NCBI RefSeq assembly: GCF_024518835.1
Contig: NZ_JANIGO010000002.1
Location: forward strand, 315,522 to 379,521
Source: Limnobacter humi
GTDB taxonomy: Bacteria; Pseudomonadota; Gammaproteobacteria; Burkholderiales; Burkholderiaceae_B
Direction of reading: 5' to 3'
Length of the DNA stretch: 64,000 nt
The notes beneath the pieces were generated by a model that was given only the letters and a program-made list of their open reading frames with translations, ran no database searches and had not been told where the DNA came from. The translations under genes were made by a program, and so were the position numbers. Position 1 is the stretch's first letter. Each line of letters starts with the position of its first letter. Shown here one piece after another: positions 26,675 through 43,096 of the stretch.

Positions 26675-27265
26675 ATGAAAAAATCGATGTTTCCCGCCCA
26701 GTTTTTCCCACTATCCTTGGCTTTCCTGTCTCTGGCTGGTGCAGCCCATGCGGCCGATTACACGATTGACCCCAGCCACACGTACCCGGCATTTGAGGCT
26801 GACCACATGGGCGGCGTATCAAAATGGCGCGGCAAAATCAACAAGTCTGAAGGAACAGTCAGTTACGATGCGGCCGCAAAAACAGGCAAGGTGGACGTCA
26901 CCATGCAGATGGCCACCATCGATTTCGGTTTCCCGAAAATGAATGAGCATGCCATTGGCCCCGATATTTTTGACACGGCCAAATACCCAACCGCACGATT
27001 TGTCAGTGATCGGTTTGTATTCGACGGCAACAAACTGGTGTCCATACCCGGCCAGCTCACCCTCAAAGGTGTGACAAAGCCGGTAACCCTGAAGGTCAAT
27101 GAATTTTTGTGCAAGCCACATCCGTTTGCCAAGCGCGAGGTGTGTGGCGCTGATGCAGAGACAGTGATTAACCGTGGGGATTTTGGTGTGGACTATGGCC
27201 TGGCCATGGGTTTCAAGCCCGAGGTTAAGTTGTTGATTTCCGTTGAAGCGATCAAAAACCCCTGA
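26675..27265 (+). CDS. YceI family periplasmic protein
   Basis: A 196-residue secreted protein: a signal peptide (MKKSMFPAQ... cleaved after AAHAA) followed by the YceI beta-barrel, which binds polyisoprenoids or similar amphiphiles. Family motifs are YTIDPSHTYPAFEADHMG at the mature N terminus, TVSYD, and LTLKGVTKPVTL. Two Cys (CKPHPFAKREVC) may form a disulfide in the loop. CCGGAG precedes the ATG. Confidence 0.92.
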   Translation: MKKSMFPAQFFPLSLAFLSLAGAAHAADYTIDPSHTYPAFEADHMGGVSKWRGKINKSEGTVSYDAAAKTGKVDVTMQMATIDFGFPKMNEHAIGPDIFDTAKYPTARFVSDRFVFDGNKLVSIPGQLTLKGVTKPVTLKVNEFLCKPHPFAKREVCGADAETVINRGDFGVDYGLAMGFKPEVKLLISVEAIKNP

Positions 27266-27284
27266 TCAACACCCGAGGTAACAC

Positions 27285-29186
27285 CTACAGCCCCAGTGCA
27301 AGGCTTACGTGGTATGTGATGAATGACGCCACGTAAGCCAAGATGAACAGGTAACCGGCTGCAGCCATCGGCATGGCCCAGCCACCTGTTTCACGTCGAA
27401 TGGTCGCCAAGGTGCTCAGGCACATGGGTGCAAACACATACCAGGCCAACAAAGAAAAAGCGGTGGCAAGGCTCCAGCCTTGAGAGATGAGCGGCATTAA
27501 AGCCTGGGCCGTGTCTTCGGCAGTGGAAGACAGCGCGTACACCGTGCCCAGCGAACTCACAGCCACCTCACGGGCGGCCAAACCCGGAACCAGCGCAATG
27601 CTAATCTGCCAGTTAAACCCGATGGGATGAAACACCACTGCCAGCGCCTTGCCAAGCATGCCAGCCATGCTGTATTCAATGGGCGCGCCGGTTGCGCCGA
27701 CCGGTGGAGCCGGAAAGCTGGCCAAAAACCACAACAGAATGGTCAGCCCCAAAATAATGCCCCCCACCCGTCGCAGAAAGATAAGAACCCGCTGCCAAAG
27801 CCCAAGACCCACGTTCCACAAGCGCGGCCAGTGGTAGCTGGGCAACTCCATCATGAGCGAGCGAACCTGGCCCCGGGTGGTGAACTGCTTCAAGACCCAA
27901 GCCACCAGCATGGCACTTAGAATACCCGCGAGATAAAGCACGAACAACACCACCCCCTGCAGCTCCACCCCACCCCACAAGGTTCGGGCAGGCACGAATG
28001 CGCCGATCAGGAGTGCATAAACCGGTAGCCGTGCAGAACAGGTCATGAGCGGAGCGATCAGGATGGTCACCAACCGGTCACGCGGGTTGTTGATGGTGCG
28101 CGCAGCCATAATGCCGGGAATGGCACAGGCAAAGCTGGACAGCAAGGGGATAAAGGAACGACCTGACAAGCCCACCCCGCCCATGATGCGGTCCAGCAAA
28201 AATGCGGCCCTGGGCAGGTAGCCTGATTCTTCCAGAATCAGAATGAAGAAAAACAAAATCAGGATTTGGGGCAAAAACACAAACACCCCACCCACACCGG
28301 CAATCACACCGTCGACCAGAAGACTTTTGAACCAGCCATCGGGCATCCATCCACCCACCCACATGCCCAGTTGGGTTGCGGTGGCATCGATGAAGTCCAT
28401 GGGTGCTTTGGCCCAACTGAATACAGCCTGGAAAATCAGGAACAAAATGATCGCCAGCAAAGCTGGACCAAGAACAGGATGCAACACCACACGGTCAATC
28501 CGGTCGCTGGTGTGTTGGGGCATCAAGCCATCCAGGTTCAGGCGTTCCAGAATACCCTTAACGGCCTCATGATCGCCCCGGGCATCCAGCTCTGGATTGT
28601 GCACCAGACTGGTCGGTTCACCCACCAGGGATTCGACGCCGCTTTTCCAGAGGTTCTGCTGGTCGAGCAGCGTGCGCAACGCCTGCGCACCATCACCAGC
28701 AATGGCCACGGTTTTCACCACGGGCAACCCAAGTTCGCGGGACAGTCCATCCAAATCGATTTTCAGCCCCTGCTTCTCGGCCAGGTCAACCATATTCAGT
28801 GCAACCACACACGGGATACCGAGCCGTTTGACCGCCAGTACCAAACGAAGGTTGCGGCGCAGATGGGTTGCATCGACCACGCACACCACCAGGTCGGGCC
28901 GCTTTTCACCCTGCGCACGCCCGTACAGCACGTTGACGGTTACAGCCTCGTCAGGCGAGCGAGGGTGCAGGCTGTAGGCACCGGGCAGGTCGAGCACACG
29001 CAATGGCTTGCCCTGGCTGGTCAGCATCTTGCCTTCTTTGCGTTCCACCGTCACGCCGGCATAGTTCGCCACCTTTTGATGACTGCCAGTCAGCCGGTTA
29101 AACAGTGCTGTTTTGCCGCAATTGGGGTTGCCCACCAGGGCCACCAAGGGACCACCCTTGAAAAAATGCACCACCTGCTGGTTCAT
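27285..29186 (-). CDS. feoB: Ferrous iron transporter FeoB
   Basis: A 633-residue Fe(II) uptake permease. The N-terminal G domain has G1 GNPNCGKTALFNRLTG, G3 DLPGAYSL and G4 NMVD; the membrane part has the Gate motifs with CAIPGIMAAR and CSARLPVY. It is shorter than the roughly 770-residue E. coli protein, but the core appears complete and ends in a hydrophobic helix. Its start overlaps the feoA stop by 4 bp (ATGA), so the two are translationally coupled. A Fur-like box sits in front of feoA. Confidence 0.95.
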   Translation of the reverse strand: MNQQVVHFFKGGPLVALVGNPNCGKTALFNRLTGSHQKVANYAGVTVERKEGKMLTSQGKPLRVLDLPGAYSLHPRSPDEAVTVNVLYGRAQGEKRPDLVVCVVDATHLRRNLRLVLAVKRLGIPCVVALNMVDLAEKQGLKIDLDGLSRELGLPVVKTVAIAGDGAQALRTLLDQQNLWKSGVESLVGEPTSLVHNPELDARGDHEAVKGILERLNLDGLMPQHTSDRIDRVVLHPVLGPALLAIILFLIFQAVFSWAKAPMDFIDATATQLGMWVGGWMPDGWFKSLLVDGVIAGVGGVFVFLPQILILFFFILILEESGYLPRAAFLLDRIMGGVGLSGRSFIPLLSSFACAIPGIMAARTINNPRDRLVTILIAPLMTCSARLPVYALLIGAFVPARTLWGGVELQGVVLFVLYLAGILSAMLVAWVLKQFTTRGQVRSLMMELPSYHWPRLWNVGLGLWQRVLIFLRRVGGIILGLTILLWFLASFPAPPVGATGAPIEYSMAGMLGKALAVVFHPIGFNWQISIALVPGLAAREVAVSSLGTVYALSSTAEDTAQALMPLISQGWSLATAFSLLAWYVFAPMCLSTLATIRRETGGWAMPMAAAGYLFILAYVASFITYHVSLALGL

Positions 29187-29491
29187 GCTGCGGCCTTGAA
29201 GGCTCCATCGGTGGCGTCGGCCACGGCAATGCAGGCAGCTTCGGCGCGGCGAAGTGCAAAGGTGGAGTCGCCCACACGAACCACCAATGGGTCGGCGCCA
29301 GGCATGCCACGTGTTAACACCATGACTGTCTCACCGGGAATAAAACCGATTTCATACAACCAGGCTGCCCATTCTGGGCTGTGTTGGGGCGGATGAACGC
29401 CCACCACCACCTTGGGCGTGTTCAGGTCAATGTCCTGAAGGCTTTGAAGGCCAGAAGCCTGTTGAATGGTGGGATGAACCGCTTGAAGCAT
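29183..29491 (-). CDS. feoA: FeoA-type SH3-domain protein
   Basis: A 102-residue cytosolic partner of FeoB. The SH3-like core shows LYEIGFIPGETVMVL and the closing VRVGDSTFALRRAEAACI, as in FeoA. It has an extra N-terminal stretch of about 30 residues. It is the first gene of the feoAB operon, overlaps feoB by 4 bp, and lies 26 bp from the Fur-like palindrome. Confidence 0.9.
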   Translation of the reverse strand: MLQAVHPTIQQASGLQSLQDIDLNTPKVVVGVHPPQHSPEWAAWLYEIGFIPGETVMVLTRGMPGADPLVVRVGDSTFALRRAEAACIAVADATDGAFKAAA

Positions 29492-30873: not shown

Positions 30874-32892
30874 CTAGGCGTCCTGCGTCCCATGCTGCTC
30901 AGCACGCAGGTTGATCAAACGGGAGAGCAATGCATCCAGTTTGTCAAACTGCACTGGCTTGACCAGGTGCTCCTGCATCCCGCAAGCCATGGAGGCCTGA
31001 ACGGTGGTCTGGTCAGACAAACCGGACAACGCACACACAAAGCTGTGTGCACTGGCGCTACTGGCATCGGCACGCAACTGTTTTGTGGCTTCATGGCCAT
31101 CCATCTCGGGCATGTCAATGTCCATGAGCACCAGGTCAAACCGCATGTCGTGGGCCAGTTTCAAAGCCTCAGCACCACTTTCGGCCTGCACCACACGGTG
31201 CCCGCGCTTGCTCAGGTAGCGGTTCAGCAATTTCAGGTTCATGGGGTGGTCGTCGACAATCAATATGTCCATCACACCCCTGGCCTCTTCGTCGGGCGCT
31301 GAAACGGCGGCAGGCTGCTCACGCTGGGCCACTGGAAGGTTCAAACTCACCGTGAAGACCGATCCAACACCAGGTTCGGAAGTGACTTCGATTCGCCCCC
31401 CCATCAGGTCCACCAAGCCTTTGGAAATCGCCAAACCCAGGCCGGTACCACCAAACTGGCGATTGATGCCTCGATTGGCCTGCGTAAACCGGTTAAACAA
31501 TTTGCGCAAGCTGGCCTGCGAAATGCCAATGCCACTGTCAGAGATTTCGATGAAGGCGTCCACACGGCCGTGAACTGGGGCGGAGGTCAACAATCGGATG
31601 CGAACAAAACCCTGTTCAGTGAATTTCAGTGCATTGGACACCAGGTTTTGTATGACCTGACGAAGCCGGTTGGCATCGCCCCTCACCCACAATGAACCAT
31701 GTGGTTCATGGCTGTAAGCAAAATCAAGGCAGCGTTGCAAAGCCAGTGGCCGGTTCAGGTCGGCCACCTGCCGCACCAACGCATCCAGGTCGAATGCAAA
31801 CGCCTCAAGGCGAATGCCGTTGGCCTGGATACGGGAGTAATCGAGAATGTCCGTCAGGATCAGGTTCAAGCTGTTGGCGGCAGAGGAAATATTGTGTGCA
31901 TCGGCCTTCTGGTGCGGGTCACTGGCATTGTCTTCCAGAAGCCGCGCGAACCCAACGATGGCATTGAGTGGCGTGCGCAACTCATGGCTCATGGTGGCCA
32001 GAAATTCTGATTTGGCTTGGTCAGCGGCTTCAGCCTCTTCACGGGCTTGAACCAGCGCAGTGACATCCATCCAGACCAACATCAGGTGAATACCCCCATG
32101 AACCACGCGGCGCAGTGCGGTCACCTGGAGATACATGGGGGGCTCGCCCGCCCGACGGTTCAAGGCCAGAACGAGCGACTCCCGCTGCGGAAATGCCACT
32201 TTGCTGACAATCAACTGGCTTAGCGGGTCACGATATTTGGCCTGTACAGGCTTGAGCAGCTCAGACCAGTCTGCCCGCACATCGTCGCGCTGGACTGGTA
32301 AAAACCGCTGGATGGACTCATCAACAAATTCCACCTGGGGTTGACCCACCGCTGGAACGGACAGCACCATCACAAAACCATTGATGCCCTGTTGAATGCC
32401 TTGAATGCGCTCTGTACTTTGCCGAAACGCCGATGTCAACAAAGCATTCTCCCGATCGGCCGACTCAACCCGGTCAATCAGAATGTCGATGATTTGCCCG
32501 GCATGCGGACATGTGTCGGGTTGAAACAAATGGACTGCTGCAGGGTTACCCCACAGCTTGGACACCAGCCACACACGCGCCAGCCAGCCGCCTGTAATAC
32601 CCGCAAGGGCTGCAGTAACCGACAGCAGCAACACTTGCCCCAGCCACGCCAGTTGGCTGATTTGACTCCAGAACACCAAGGCACTGAGCAGCGAAAACAC
32701 GAACAGCGATAGCGAGACTGGGCGTGCCAGCCACAACGACCGCGTCTGCCGGAACAGCGCCCCAAAAAAGCTGGAACTGTCGGGAATATTGTTGTCAGTT
32801 GAAGAATGCAACGGTGTAACGGTCCACAAATCAATGTTCAAGTGGAATCGGCAAATTGCCGGGCCTGAAGTTGATACCCCTGGGTTTGGCAA
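30874..32892 (-). CDS. Hybrid sensor histidine kinase/response regulator
   Basis: A 672-residue membrane sensor kinase. It has two transmembrane helices near residues 58-105, a PAS-like region at about 150-280, and an H box [20 protein letters not shown]. The catalytic N, G1 and G2 boxes follow ([28 protein letters not shown]), then a C-terminal receiver with [11 protein letters not shown], phosphoacceptor in [14 protein letters not shown] and Lys in HLVKPVQ. There is no Hpt domain. The start is uncertain: the listed TTG (32892) is the furthest codon, and TTG 32829 is another option. Upstream lie a LexA-like box and a divergent small gene. Confidence 0.88.
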
Positions 32893-32920: not shown

Positions 32921-32940
32921 TACTGTACACAGTTACAGTG
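32921..32940. promoter_or_regulatory. LexA (SOS) box candidate
   Basis: TACTGTACACAGTTACAGTG matches the E. coli LexA consensus at 15 of 20 positions and fits CTGT-N8-ACAG exactly, the pattern also used by betaproteobacterial LexA. On the minus strand a promoter-like TTGGTA (32973-32968), 18 bp, TACAAT (32949-32944) would start within the box. On the plus strand a weaker TGTACA (32924-32929), 18 bp, TACAGT (32948-32953) overlaps it. It lies 54 bp from the ATG of the 90-residue gene. Confidence 0.6.
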
Positions 32941-32994
32941 TTTATTGTACAGTTGTTTTCAGAGTGATACCAATTGAGCGAATAGGGGAACGAC

Positions 32995-33267
32995 ATGAGT
33001 GTAAAGCGCTTTGTGGGGTTTTGGTTTGTTTGGGTGTTGGCCTGCGCCTGGGTGATTGAACCCACCTTGATCAACCCATTGTTTTCGGTCCAGGAACCCA
33101 GCATTGCGCTGGCGTGGAACTCGGTAAACAGCGACCTGGGGCATGCCGGTTTTTTGACAGAATCCCTTCATCCAGTAGAATCGATGGACTATTTCAGAAC
33201 CATCTGCATGCTCTACCTTGGGCTGCCATTGATGGCATATCTGGCAACACAATGGAAGGCGCTGTAA
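32995..33267 (+). CDS. Small membrane protein of unknown family behind a LexA box
   Basis: A 90-residue protein. An N-terminal hydrophobic helix (about residues 6-22, rich in Phe and Trp) is followed by an extracytoplasmic-looking stretch of about 45 residues, and a second helix lies around ICMLYLGLPLMAYLATQW. I do not recognise a family. AGGGGA lies 7 nt before the ATG, a good ribosome site. The LexA-like box upstream suggests DNA-damage induction; small SOS-induced membrane proteins that delay division are known in other phyla (SidA, YneA), but similarity in sequence is not claimed. The next gene starts 24 bp downstream. Confidence 0.65.
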   Translation: MSVKRFVGFWFVWVLACAWVIEPTLINPLFSVQEPSIALAWNSVNSDLGHAGFLTESLHPVESMDYFRTICMLYLGLPLMAYLATQWKAL

Positions 33268-33291: not shown

Positions 33292-34365
33292 ATGAAGTTG
33301 GGTCTTAAAACCGTGGCTGTGCTGTATTCAGCCACACTGCTGTCCGCTTGCGCTTCATCCAACCCCTACTACGACGCCAGCAAGCCACACCATCGGCCCG
33401 ACGGTTTCGTCAACAGCGACGGAACGCGCATTGCCAAATCCATGGATGACGTGCTTCGCTGGTATCGAGAACGGTTTGGCAAAACACTGCCGCCCCCGCC
33501 TGGACAATACCGATCGTCATACGCAGACTTCAAAGTCCATCCATTCTCAAAAACGGACTGGGAATCGGCGGGCCGCCTGTCGGCGACTTGGCTGGGCCAT
33601 GCGACAGTGCTGCTAAAAATCAACGACTTCACCGTGCTCACCGATCCGCATTTTTCGCCCAGGGCGTTTCCCATTCAATGGGCAGGTCCGGCCAAACGCA
33701 AAATAGAGAGCCCGATTACAGTAGAACAATTGCCCCCGATTCGAGTGGTGGTGATCAGCCACAACCATTACGACCATTTGGACAAGAACACCATCGTGCA
33801 ATTGGCCAGACTGCAGCCTGACACGGTGTTCATGGTTCCTTTGGGTGTTGAACGGACACTGGCCGATTGGGGCATTGAAAACACAGTGGCGCTGGATTGG
33901 TGGGACAGCGCCGAAGTTGACGGTGTGCCGATTACCCTGGTGCCTGCACACCATTGGTCAACCCGCACCTGGAGCGACCGGAATGAGACGCTGTGGGGTG
34001 GCTGGGTGGTCCAGCACCCTGCCCTGCGCTTTTATTTTTCTGGTGACACTGGTTACAGCAAAGACTTTGCTGAAATCGGCAAGCGCCTGGGGCCATTTGA
34101 CTTTAGCGCCATTGCCGTCGGCGCCTATGAACCCCGCTGGTTCATGAAAGAACAGCACATCAACCCTGAAGAGGCCGTGAAGGTACACCGAGAGGTGAAA
34201 TCTTCCCGCTCCTTGGGTGTTCATTGGGGAACGTTTGAACTCACCGACGAAGCATTAGACCAACCGTTGGGTGATGTAGACCAAGCGGCCCGGCGCGCGG
34301 GCTTGAAAGAAGGTGAATTTGTCATGCTGGAGCATGGACAGACCCTGCGCCTGGACAAACCCTAA
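33292..34365 (+). CDS. Metallo-beta-lactamase-fold lipoprotein (NAPE-PLD/UlaG-like)
   Basis: A 357-residue predicted lipoprotein (lipobox LSAC, Cys 20) with the zinc motif SHNHYDHLD, further ligands in PAHHWSTRT and FSGDTGYSKDF, and His in GVHWGTFEL. Its layout matches bacterial relatives of N-acyl-phosphatidylethanolamine phospholipase D, which cut phosphodiester bonds in lipids. The substrate is unknown; an outer-membrane or periplasmic location is expected. It may be cotranscribed with the 90-residue gene (24 bp gap), which would place it under the same LexA box. Confidence 0.85.
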   Translation: MKLGLKTVAVLYSATLLSACASSNPYYDASKPHHRPDGFVNSDGTRIAKSMDDVLRWYRERFGKTLPPPPGQYRSSYADFKVHPFSKTDWESAGRLSATWLGHATVLLKINDFTVLTDPHFSPRAFPIQWAGPAKRKIESPITVEQLPPIRVVVISHNHYDHLDKNTIVQLARLQPDTVFMVPLGVERTLADWGIENTVALDWWDSAEVDGVPITLVPAHHWSTRTWSDRNETLWGGWVVQHPALRFYFSGDTGYSKDFAEIGKRLGPFDFSAIAVGAYEPRWFMKEQHINPEEAVKVHREVKSSRSLGVHWGTFELTDEALDQPLGDVDQAARRAGLKEGEFVMLEHGQTLRLDKP

Positions 34366-34394: not shown

Positions 34395-34808
34395 TTAAAT
34401 CAGACGGTGCACACTGGGTGTGCAGTGGCGCACCAAGCAGAGGGCCAGCAAATCATGCAACTGCTCGTCGGTGGAATCGTCTGACAGAAAGTGCATGCCA
34501 GCAATGGACACCCAATGGCGGCGATCCAGCCGCGCCGGAGTATCTTGAATGATCACCAGCTGTGTGCCCGCTGCATATAAGTCCGCCAGTGTGTTCTGAA
34601 TCAAATCGGAGGAGCGCTGGTAACTGGCACGGACCACCACAACCCCGATCCGGAGAAACTTTGCTGCATTGGCCAGTTCTTTTGCCGTGCCACGGGGCAA
34701 TACCTCATGCTGCCCCCAGGTGCCAGCAGCAACAGCGCACAATTTCTTCAGCAGTTGTGTATTCGGCTCAAGAACAACGACGCCGATTGAATCGAGTGCT
34801 GCCGCCAT
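34395..34808 (-). CDS. Receiver-like protein lacking the phosphoacceptor
   Basis: A 137-residue protein whose alternating hydrophobic strands and helices (IGVVVLEPNTQLLKKL, IGVVVVRASYQ, QLVIIQDTPARL, GMHFLSDDSTDEQLHDLL) follow the CheY-like receiver plan. Where the phosphorylated Asp is expected, after the third strand, the sequence has Arg, and the acidic pair after strand 1 is EP. It may be a pseudo-receiver. AAGG about 6 nt before ATG 34808 decides the start. The 214 bp upstream, before the UbiB-like gene, show no gene. Confidence 0.5.
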   Translation of the reverse strand: MAAALDSIGVVVLEPNTQLLKKLCAVAAGTWGQHEVLPRGTAKELANAAKFLRIGVVVVRASYQRSSDLIQNTLADLYAAGTQLVIIQDTPARLDRRHWVSIAGMHFLSDDSTDEQLHDLLALCLVRHCTPSVHRLI

Positions 34809-35022
34809 GGTTAGCCTTTTGTCTAGGACAAGATAATGAATTGAACCACAGGACCTGTGAATGGGCAAGTCAAAAATGCTGTTCAAAGCATCCCGCATGG
34901 GACCGAATGTCCATGCTTTGTGTCAGACCCATCATAGCGGCCGTTGTTCCAGGGCCATCCCGTTAAAAATTGATTAATTCGGTCAATTCCAGGTTCTAGG
35001 GCCGTCTCGGGGTCCAGCCCCG

Positions 35023-41407: not shown

Positions 41408-43096
41408 ATGGACTTCGACCTTTTGATGTGGCTGGCTGGCGCTGGCTCAGCGGGCTATTTGATCAACCTGGGGCATGAGCGACTGCAACTATCGCGGGCC
41501 AAGCACCCGGGCTTGGCTGGGCATGTGCGCATGGCCAAGCGCTTAAGCCGCTTAATGCCCTACTACGAACTCAAAGACCAGGCTTTTTTTGATTGTGACA
41601 GTGCAGATGCTGCCCTGGTGAATCAACGCAAAACCGGGTTTTTCAAATTGTCTGAACGGCTTGCGCAACGCGCCCCAGTGGGTGCGGTGCTCATGCGCGA
41701 GGCCATTCAAACCCTGTCGGATGCGCAATTCACCTACAAATACCGTGTGCCCTTCCAGTTTCGACACATGGTCAATGAACACCTGCAGCCTGTGCTGTTT
41801 TTGTCGAAGAGCGAGGGGGTGCGCGTGTGGGACGTGGACAACAATGCCTACATCGACTTGACCGGTGCCTATGGCACCAACCTGCTGGGCTATGACCACT
41901 ACAAGCGGTTTATCGAAGAAGCCGCGAGCGAGATGCACACCTTGGGCCCCGTGCTGGGACCCTACCACCCAGTGGTGCTGGACAATGCACGCCGCATTTT
42001 AAGCATTGCCGGGCAGGATGAAATTTCATTCCACATGTCGGGCACCGAGGCGGTGATGCAAGCTGTTCGGCTGGCGCAGTACCACACCGGCAAGGAGAGA
42101 TTGGTGCGGTTTGCAGGGGCCTACCATGGCTGGTGGGGCGATGTTCAACCCGGCGTGGGAAACCCGGTGACTGCCGACCGCACAATCACCTTGCAGGACC
42201 TGAGTGAACGCAGCCTGAAAGTGCTGGCCACCCGGCGCGACATTGCCTGTGTGCTGGTCAACCCATTGCAGGCGCTGCACCCCAACAGCAATGCGCCTGG
42301 TGACAGCGCGCTGTTAAACAGTGCGCGCAAGGCTGGCTACGACAAAGCAGCGTACACCGCCTGGCTACAGGCACTGCGACGGGTGTGCACCGACCGGGGC
42401 ATTGTGTTGATTTTCGATGAGGTGTTTTTGGGTTTCAGGCTGGCCAAAGGCGGGGCGCAGGACTACTTCGGTGTGCGCGCCGACCTGGTGACCTATGGCA
42501 AAACGCTGGGGGGCGGTTTGCCAGTGGGCGTGCTGTGCGGCAAAACAGAATTGATGCGTCGTTACTCCAACCGAAAACCCGCCGACATCTGCTTTGCCCG
42601 GGGCACATTCAATTCGCACCCGTATGTGATGCACACCATGAACGCATTTTTGCGGTATTTGGATGCGCCAGAGGCGGCGGGCTTGTACAACAACCTGGAT
42701 GCATTGTGGAATGGCCGGTGTGCACAGCTCAATCAACGCCTGAAAGCTGCCCAGTTGCCCGTGGAAGTCCGCAACATGGCCTCGGTGTGGACCATCGTGT
42801 ATGCGCGTGCGTCCCGTTTCAACTGGATGTTCCAGTTTTACCTGCTAGATGCCGGCCTGCTGCTGAGTTGGGTTGGGTCCGGCCGCATGATTTTCAGCCA
42901 CGCATTCAATGACATGGCGTTCGATGAGGTGTGTCAGCGATTTGTTCAAGCAGCCCTCGCCATGCAGGCCGATGGTTGGTGGGAGGCTGGCGAGGCCTGC
43001 AACACCAACCAGAAAATTCAACGGCGTGTGCTGCTGGAAAGCTGGCGCGCTTTCACGTCGTCCATGGGGTCGATGAGCTGGCCTTTCAACAGGTAA
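41408..43096 (+). CDS. Class III aminotransferase with a long N-terminal extension
   Basis: A 562-residue PLP enzyme like glutamate-1-semialdehyde aminomutase: MSGTEAVMQAVRLAQ, AYHGWWGDVQPG, IFDEVFLGFRL and the Schiff-base lysine in TYGKTLGGGLPVG. HemL-type enzymes have about 430 residues; here about 110 residues precede the catalytic domain, starting with a hydrophobic segment (DLLMWLAGAGSAGYLIN) and a helical region. It is probably not the heme enzyme but a biosynthetic aminotransferase of unknown substrate. Its 3' end overlaps the convergent Mpo1-like gene by 79 bp. ATG 41408 is chosen because upstream codons overlap psd. Confidence 0.85.
   Translation: MDFDLLMWLAGAGSAGYLINLGHERLQLSRAKHPGLAGHVRMAKRLSRLMPYYELKDQAFFDCDSADAALVNQRKTGFFKLSERLAQRAPVGAVLMREAIQTLSDAQFTYKYRVPFQFRHMVNEHLQPVLFLSKSEGVRVWDVDNNAYIDLTGAYGTNLLGYDHYKRFIEEAASEMHTLGPVLGPYHPVVLDNARRILSIAGQDEISFHMSGTEAVMQAVRLAQYHTGKERLVRFAGAYHGWWGDVQPGVGNPVTADRTITLQDLSERSLKVLATRRDIACVLVNPLQALHPNSNAPGDSALLNSARKAGYDKAAYTAWLQALRRVCTDRGIVLIFDEVFLGFRLAKGGAQDYFGVRADLVTYGKTLGGGLPVGVLCGKTELMRRYSNRKPADICFARGTFNSHPYVMHTMNAFLRYLDAPEAAGLYNNLDALWNGRCAQLNQRLKAAQLPVEVRNMASVWTIVYARASRFNWMFQFYLLDAGLLLSWVGSGRMIFSHAFNDMAFDEVCQRFVQAALAMQADGWWEAGEACNTNQKIQRRVLLESWRAFTSSMGSMSWPFNR

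Follow-up and report, generated by a model that had tools for sequence, protein, structure and literature searches.

The locus

The window, by which we mean the whole stretch of 64,000 nucleotides of Limnobacter humi DNA that was analysed, contains a spacer of 102 bp from which the frame of a hybrid histidine kinase runs leftward and an open reading frame of 90 codons runs rightward (Table 1). In this spacer lies a LexA-like box, whose core CTGT-N8-ACAG occupies positions 32923-32938. The box agrees at 15 of 20 bases with the E. coli LexA consensus, and it ends 54 bp before the ATG of the small frame. The original prediction had described this very arrangement, and the position, the fit, the length of the spacer and the distance to the start codon are all borne out on the sequence. 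In the orthologues, purine-rich stretches stand (by eye) roughly where AGGGGA sits here.

Table 1. Features of the locus, in coordinates of the window.
Feature	Position	Strand	Basis
Hybrid histidine kinase (HisKA, HATPase, receiver)	30874..32892	-	Profiles; TTG start uncertain
LexA-like box TACTGTACACAGTTACAGTG	32921..32940	+	Pattern match, genus matrix, spacer shuffles, orthologous spacers
Left arm of palindrome, ACTGTACA	32922..32929	+	Exact in 13/14 genomes; overlaps box
Right arm of palindrome, TGTACAGT	32946..32953	-	Invariant in 14/14 genomes; 16 bp from left arm
Candidate -10 hexamer TACAGT	32948..32953	+	Conserved TAxAxT; inferred
Probable ribosome binding site AGGGGA	32984..32989	+	Sequence
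Small membrane protein, 90 aa; orphan family, Limnobacter-only as found	32995..33267	+	Orthologues, profile, model
NAPE-PLD-homologous lipoprotein, metallo-beta-lactamase fold; probable second gene	33292..34365	+	Profiles, alignment

The small frame was rightly treated as a real gene. Orthologues are found in 14 of 16 genomes of the genus; the remaining two have a completeness of 85% and 65%. dN is lower than dS in 28 of the 28 pairs formed by eight of the 14 sequences (the L. humi sequence, which differs in length, was left out). Beyond the genus the protein was found in none of 24 other genera, and a profile run against 150 genomes of the order gave two matches, both in Limnobacter; the other 148 genomes, from 90 further genera, gave none. 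A collection of genome contigs gave 11 loci, seven from Limnobacter and four from metagenome bins. The earlier remark that no family was recognised for the protein holds as well, for there is no match in Pfam, NCBIfam or PADLOC; weak matches to two phage families (E 0.034; holin 0.41; PHROG) and to canavalin (E 0.2) are at chance level and were set aside. The protein has two hydrophobic stretches. Its AlphaFold model, of low overall confidence (pLDDT 61), predicts helices at residues 3-31, broken at 20, and 60-89, with low confidence for 31-59, and the invariant residues include W13, C17, E22, P23, D65, R68, C71 and P78.

The gene that follows had been suggested as a possible member of the same unit, and the gap of 24 bp together with the conserved gene order supports this. 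It had been called a lipoprotein hydrolase. The lipoprotein part stands, with a lipobox LSAC (by eye), and the identity can be corrected: the protein is a near full-length homologue of the NAPE-PLD family, with a predicted activity. Residues 31-354 align with N-acyl-phosphatidylethanolamine phospholipase D (PDB 4qn9) at E 4e-84, and both carry the HxHxDH metal-ligand motif in the form SHNHYDHLD. 4qn9 is the human enzyme; the Limnobacter protein differs in being a bacterial lipoprotein. After the unit, on the opposite strand (34395-34898), comes a conserved protein of 130-170 aa that takes the same place in L100, L109 and L158 and has no Pfam match.

On the left, the kinase does lie divergent to the box as described, but it is not the usual neighbour. 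In all 13 other orthologous loci this place is taken by a gene of the dienelactone-hydrolase type (called in 12 by a shared motif and in L018 by eye, with L009 checked against Pfam), and a hybrid kinase lies beyond it in L104 and L109 and, by eye, in the others where the loci reach. At the L. humi locus the dienelactone hydrolase is absent, its best matches elsewhere in the genome being 35 and 36% identical. The kinase adjoins the box because the hydrolase gene is missing, and its position looks like a local accident. Further left in the window (26675-29491), YceI-like and feoA/feoB-like genes (by eye) stand between genes that are adjacent in L100, L104 and L109; one of the flanking genes is on the opposite strand relative to these loci, which indicates that the block was inserted or rearranged.

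A conserved element in front of the small gene

Taken alone, the exact pattern CTGT-N8-ACAG is poor evidence for a box. It occurs twice in the window (the second time at 42533) against 0.91 expected. In the whole genome of 3.2 Mb it turns up at 41 places, and the reversed control at 26; 39 of the 41 were read as loci, the other two being the box studied here and the window site at 42533. The box in the spacer stands above chance because, under the genus matrix described below, a site of equal quality appears in only eight of 20,000 mononucleotide shuffles of the spacer, and because the pattern is kept in all 14 orthologous spacers, one for each genus genome in which the small gene was found. 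The original prediction had looked to just this conservation beside the orthologous frame.

An inverted repeat search places the box inside a longer element, TACTGTACA-N16-TGTACAGT, which the original prediction had not mentioned; its outer repeat is conserved to the same degree as the box. The one exception to the exact left arm is a variant with a single base changed, ACTGTACG, in G003 (locus L011). Across the 14 genomes 24 of the 33 columns of the element are invariant, compared with 3/20 and 1/20 in its two flanks, and nine genomes, that of L. humi among them, carry it in identical form. This identity holds even though the L. humi small protein shares just 38-53% identity with its orthologues, and among five of the nine genomes the synonymous distance of the small gene ranges from 0.51 to 2.1 (ten pairs). 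The conserved blocks are TACTGTAC, an inner ACAG, TTT and TGTACAGT. The inner ACAG (32935-32938) is invariant in 14/14, while L017 and L018 carry other bases to either side of it, and it is not required by the outer palindrome ACTGTACA-N16-TGTACAGT.

Since exact 8-bp arms also arise in 107 of 5000 shuffled spacers, the palindrome would be weak without its conservation. Its distribution is narrow. A search for ACTGTACA-N14..18-TGTA matches at the small gene in 13 of 16 genus genomes. The other two matches, in G003 and in G009, have a short spacing and occur on a single strand, hence are not the palindrome. The full palindrome, allowing a spacing of 12-20, occurs in two of 399 genomes of the order, both Limnobacter and both at the small gene, and none was found elsewhere in the L. 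humi genome. Occurrences in 16 viral contigs were taken as chance, none having ACAG at the offset seen in the element; in the six with a similar middle the match falls inside an ORF of a low-GC contig, in genes resembling phage tail genes.

The right arm contains the candidate -10 hexamer, and if TACAGT does act as such, a rightward transcript would start near 32961. The hexamer is not among the promoters given by the promoter scan, whose sole output is a leftward TTGGTA-18-TACAAT. We discarded the latter, as its -10 is lost in L017 and L018.

That the small ORF is preceded by a functional regulatory element, as the original prediction had it, is well supported by the block conservation, and we consider it very likely that the 33-bp element regulates the rightward genes. 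The L. humi genome keeps the left arm without having the hydrolase gene, which suggests that the element probably serves the rightward pair rather than the left gene. This strongly conserved, genus-specific element is probably a composite promoter-operator, and as such a real switch.

LexA as a candidate reader

To ask how well the box fits Limnobacter LexA, we used a genus matrix made from 11 boxes at five kinds of locus (recA, lexA, uvrD-, nrdB- and intI-type, of which the uvrD, nrdB and integron-integrase types were named by eye), with the window and loci of the L. humi genome, 155,710 bases, as background. The genome encodes LexA. Among the 16 genus genomes, lexA was found in 14 and is preceded by a box in every one of them, the remaining two genomes being incomplete; recA was found in all 16 and its box in 14.

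With this matrix the box scores 16.4 bits, well within the range of genuine boxes scored with their own locus left out (11.4 to 24.8), and the next best site of the window scores 9.6. The orthologous boxes range from 11.4 to 20.5 bits, the highest being that of L017. When the 41 exact occurrences in the genome are ranked by score, the box comes 7th, behind recA, an integron-integrase-like gene, a DUF3717 gene, nrdB, an IS91-type transposase and uvrD; four of these six belonged to the training set, and nrdB, uvrD, the transposase and the integrase were named by eye. The DUF3717 gene (L074), whose box of 24.2 bits lies outside the training set, offers a parallel in layout: a LexA-like box there is followed after 8 bp by TACACT, and in the candidate element the box is followed after 9 bp by TACAGT. 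Like the SOS boxes of Beta- and Gammaproteobacteria, the candidate has CTGT-N8-ACAG, a preceding TA, a place before a transcription unit and a full score in range. The invariance of the inner ACAG, next to bases that vary among lineages and unneeded by the outer palindrome, likewise favours LexA.

Some of these places deserve a word of their own. The box at L074:1001-1016 (G000 C12:304621) is among the best scored and makes the DUF3717 gene a candidate SOS gene. At L064:1001-1016 (G000 C1:455496) a box of 24.4 bits that had been used in training overlaps the start codon of the integron-integrase-like gene; this tyrosine recombinase matches Pfam Phage_int_SAM_4 and Phage_integrase, and its C-terminus looks cut or frameshifted. 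At L073:1001-1016 (G000 C12:194230) the frame of the IS91-type transposase (by eye) is preceded, at a distance of about 28 bp, by a box of 20.5 bits, and SOS control of ISCR transposases has been reported (PMC13393415, 2026).

The inner octamer tells a different story from the full score. An A/T-rich octamer is typical of LexA boxes rather than strictly defining, and the main form does not have it. In the nine-genome form, ACACAGTT scores -1.8 with the genus matrix, compared with -1.4 for the lowest genuine box scored left out. The octamers of L018 (-2.5) and L011 (-6.4) are lower still and, together with the main form, put 11 of the 14 genomes below -1.4; those of L013 and L016 (-0.5) and of L017 (3.0) lie in the genuine range, in three of 14 genomes. 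An E. coli matrix, with which 16 E. coli boxes were scored left out, gives the octamer -4.3, below all 16 boxes (lowest -0.3), and the whole box 13.0, above one of the 16 (range 7.1-26.7). Of random octamers with the base composition of the spacer, a third score as well as ACACAGTT. Genus recA boxes mostly have ATAGATTT in this place and lexA boxes mostly ATATAATC. At position 2 of the octamer the element has an invariant C, compared with T in every recA and lexA box found; the E. coli sulA operator has C there likewise. At the lower end of the range, a score equal to that of the L011 box (11.4 bits) turned up once, within a gene (L166), when 28 unrelated loci were scanned whole.

Genuine SOS boxes also differ from the candidate in that the latter is nested in a longer palindrome, which is not found elsewhere, and LexA leaves the conserved TTT and the right arm TGTACAGT unexplained. 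Of the LexA-box reading in the original prediction, then, one part stands, the full score being among those of genuine boxes, and one part does not, the octamer in 9/14 genomes being below all of them. On the sequence we regard LexA binding at the candidate box as an evenly balanced proposition, and the small gene as a plausible candidate member of the SOS regulon, without filing it as a member.

Any such link would be a local one. Matches to the lipoprotein at E 0.001 or better, some of them remote, occur in 65 of 200 genomes of the order. We read the loci of the best 30 of these 65, of which 28 lie outside the genus, and since the best LexA-like site upstream in those 28 scores 6.6 bits, an SOS link of the unit is probably confined to Limnobacter. 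In two of these loci, on cut contigs (L164 and L182), the best upstream scores are 4.6 and -0.9, and the best score of all 28 scanned whole, the 11.4 of L166, falls within that locus's match to the gene.

Alternative readers of the element

The features that LexA leaves aside could belong to a different protein. A dedicated regulator would bind ACTGTACA-N16-TGTACAGT in the form of two dimers, each centred on TGTACA, at a distance of 22 bp, and would have a third half-site in the ACAG at 32935; the LexA-like match would be a by-product of the CTGT/ACAG half-sites. In favour of such a protein, the 8-bp arms are exact in 13/14 genomes; the TG, C and G of the right arm are not needed by a -10 hexamer, the C of the left arm opposes the LexA preference seen in the genus, and the commonest form of the octamer is not LexA-like. 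Against this, we recognised no DNA-binding neighbour by eye in the region of the window or in three relatives (L100, L104 and L109), no regulon is visible given that the palindrome occurs nowhere else in the genome, and the repeat itself is weak apart from its conservation. We hold a dedicated regulator to be possible rather than probable.

The symmetry could also be that of two overlapping back-to-back promoters, with no special regulator at all. Each arm reads TACAGT outward as a -10 and TGTACA inward as a -35, with an 18-bp spacer, and a divergent left gene is present in all 13 other loci. The hexamers, however, match at just 4/6 each and are absent from the promoter scan output, and the L. 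humi genome keeps the left arm without having the left gene. Moreover, the non-consensus C and G of the right-arm TACAGT are invariant, as is the inner ACAG. This explanation appears unlikely.

A light-responsive MerR protein of the LitR/CarH type seems highly improbable as the reader. L028 of this genome is a MerR protein that carries B12-binding domains, and relatives of this type bind TGTACA-N12-TGTACA, the form of the PmlR2 sites, with T(G/A)TACA-N12-TGTA(C/T)A as the PplR1 consensus (PMC9758184). Paired TGTACA centres are indeed common to those operators and the element, but their spacing is 12, not the 16 seen here, and the element has the extended arms ACTGTACA. Furthermore, there is no TGTACA in the spacer preceding the L028 gene, and the sole exact TGTACA-N12-TGTACA pair of the genome falls within the end of an efflux-pump-like gene. 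The L028 gene itself (G000 C1:95533) lies beside an FeS-type photolyase, glutathione peroxidase and folE2 (by eye); its spacer holds the repeat TTTTGTC-CTA-GACAAAA, and the cluster is a likely light-response one.

A possible role for the unit

What the small protein does may be approached from known systems or from its neighbour. The original prediction compared it with the SOS-induced small membrane proteins that pause division, SidA and YneA. Proteins of this type, which include SidA and DidA of Caulobacter and YneA of Bacillus, have a single transmembrane helix, in YneA with a LysM domain. What is common to both sides is a small membrane protein behind an SOS box, which is here a possible one; this reading overlaps with that of LexA as the reader. 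Inhibitors of this kind are reported from many bacteria (PMC6051672). The Limnobacter protein differs in having two hydrophobic stretches rather than one, it is an orphan for which Pfam, NCBIfam and PADLOC give neither LysM nor any other match, it shares its unit with a homologue of a lipid enzyme, and its profile was not matched in the 148 genomes from other genera. The division-pausing idea has thus gained no specific support, and such a role, suggested by analogy, is improbable.

To explain the conservation of the element we propose a genus-specific composite promoter-operator for the unit of small protein and NAPE-PLD-like lipoprotein, with LexA as the leading candidate repressor; going by the sequence, we give this model about even credence. 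RNA polymerase would use TACAGT in the right arm as the -10, and a repressor on the box would cover the -35 and the spacer region. LexA would be the likeliest repressor, and DNA damage would lead to RecA-stimulated LexA cleavage and release of the two-gene unit, while the outer arms might serve a second protein or a symmetric promoter. Both products would most likely have their place in the envelope, where the lipoprotein might work on N-modified phospholipids with the small protein as a partner in the membrane. Such a partnership is our best guess from gene order and a tentative one. An elaboration in which LexA and a second palindrome-binding regulator share the 33-bp site, the envelope-lipid unit being opened by DNA damage plus another signal, we consider doubtful. 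If it were true, it would link the SOS response to the turnover of N-modified phospholipids, a link of which we know no example.

Even if the reader is not LexA, a 33-bp element that is identical in nine genomes and has no recognised regulator beside it would provide a handle for finding that regulator. The locus also offers a defined pair for study, an orphan membrane protein beside a protein homologous to a human enzyme that has been well studied. If LexA does read the site, the SOS regulon of Limnobacter would gain a NAPE-PLD-like envelope unit, and DNA damage would be tied to lipid chemistry.
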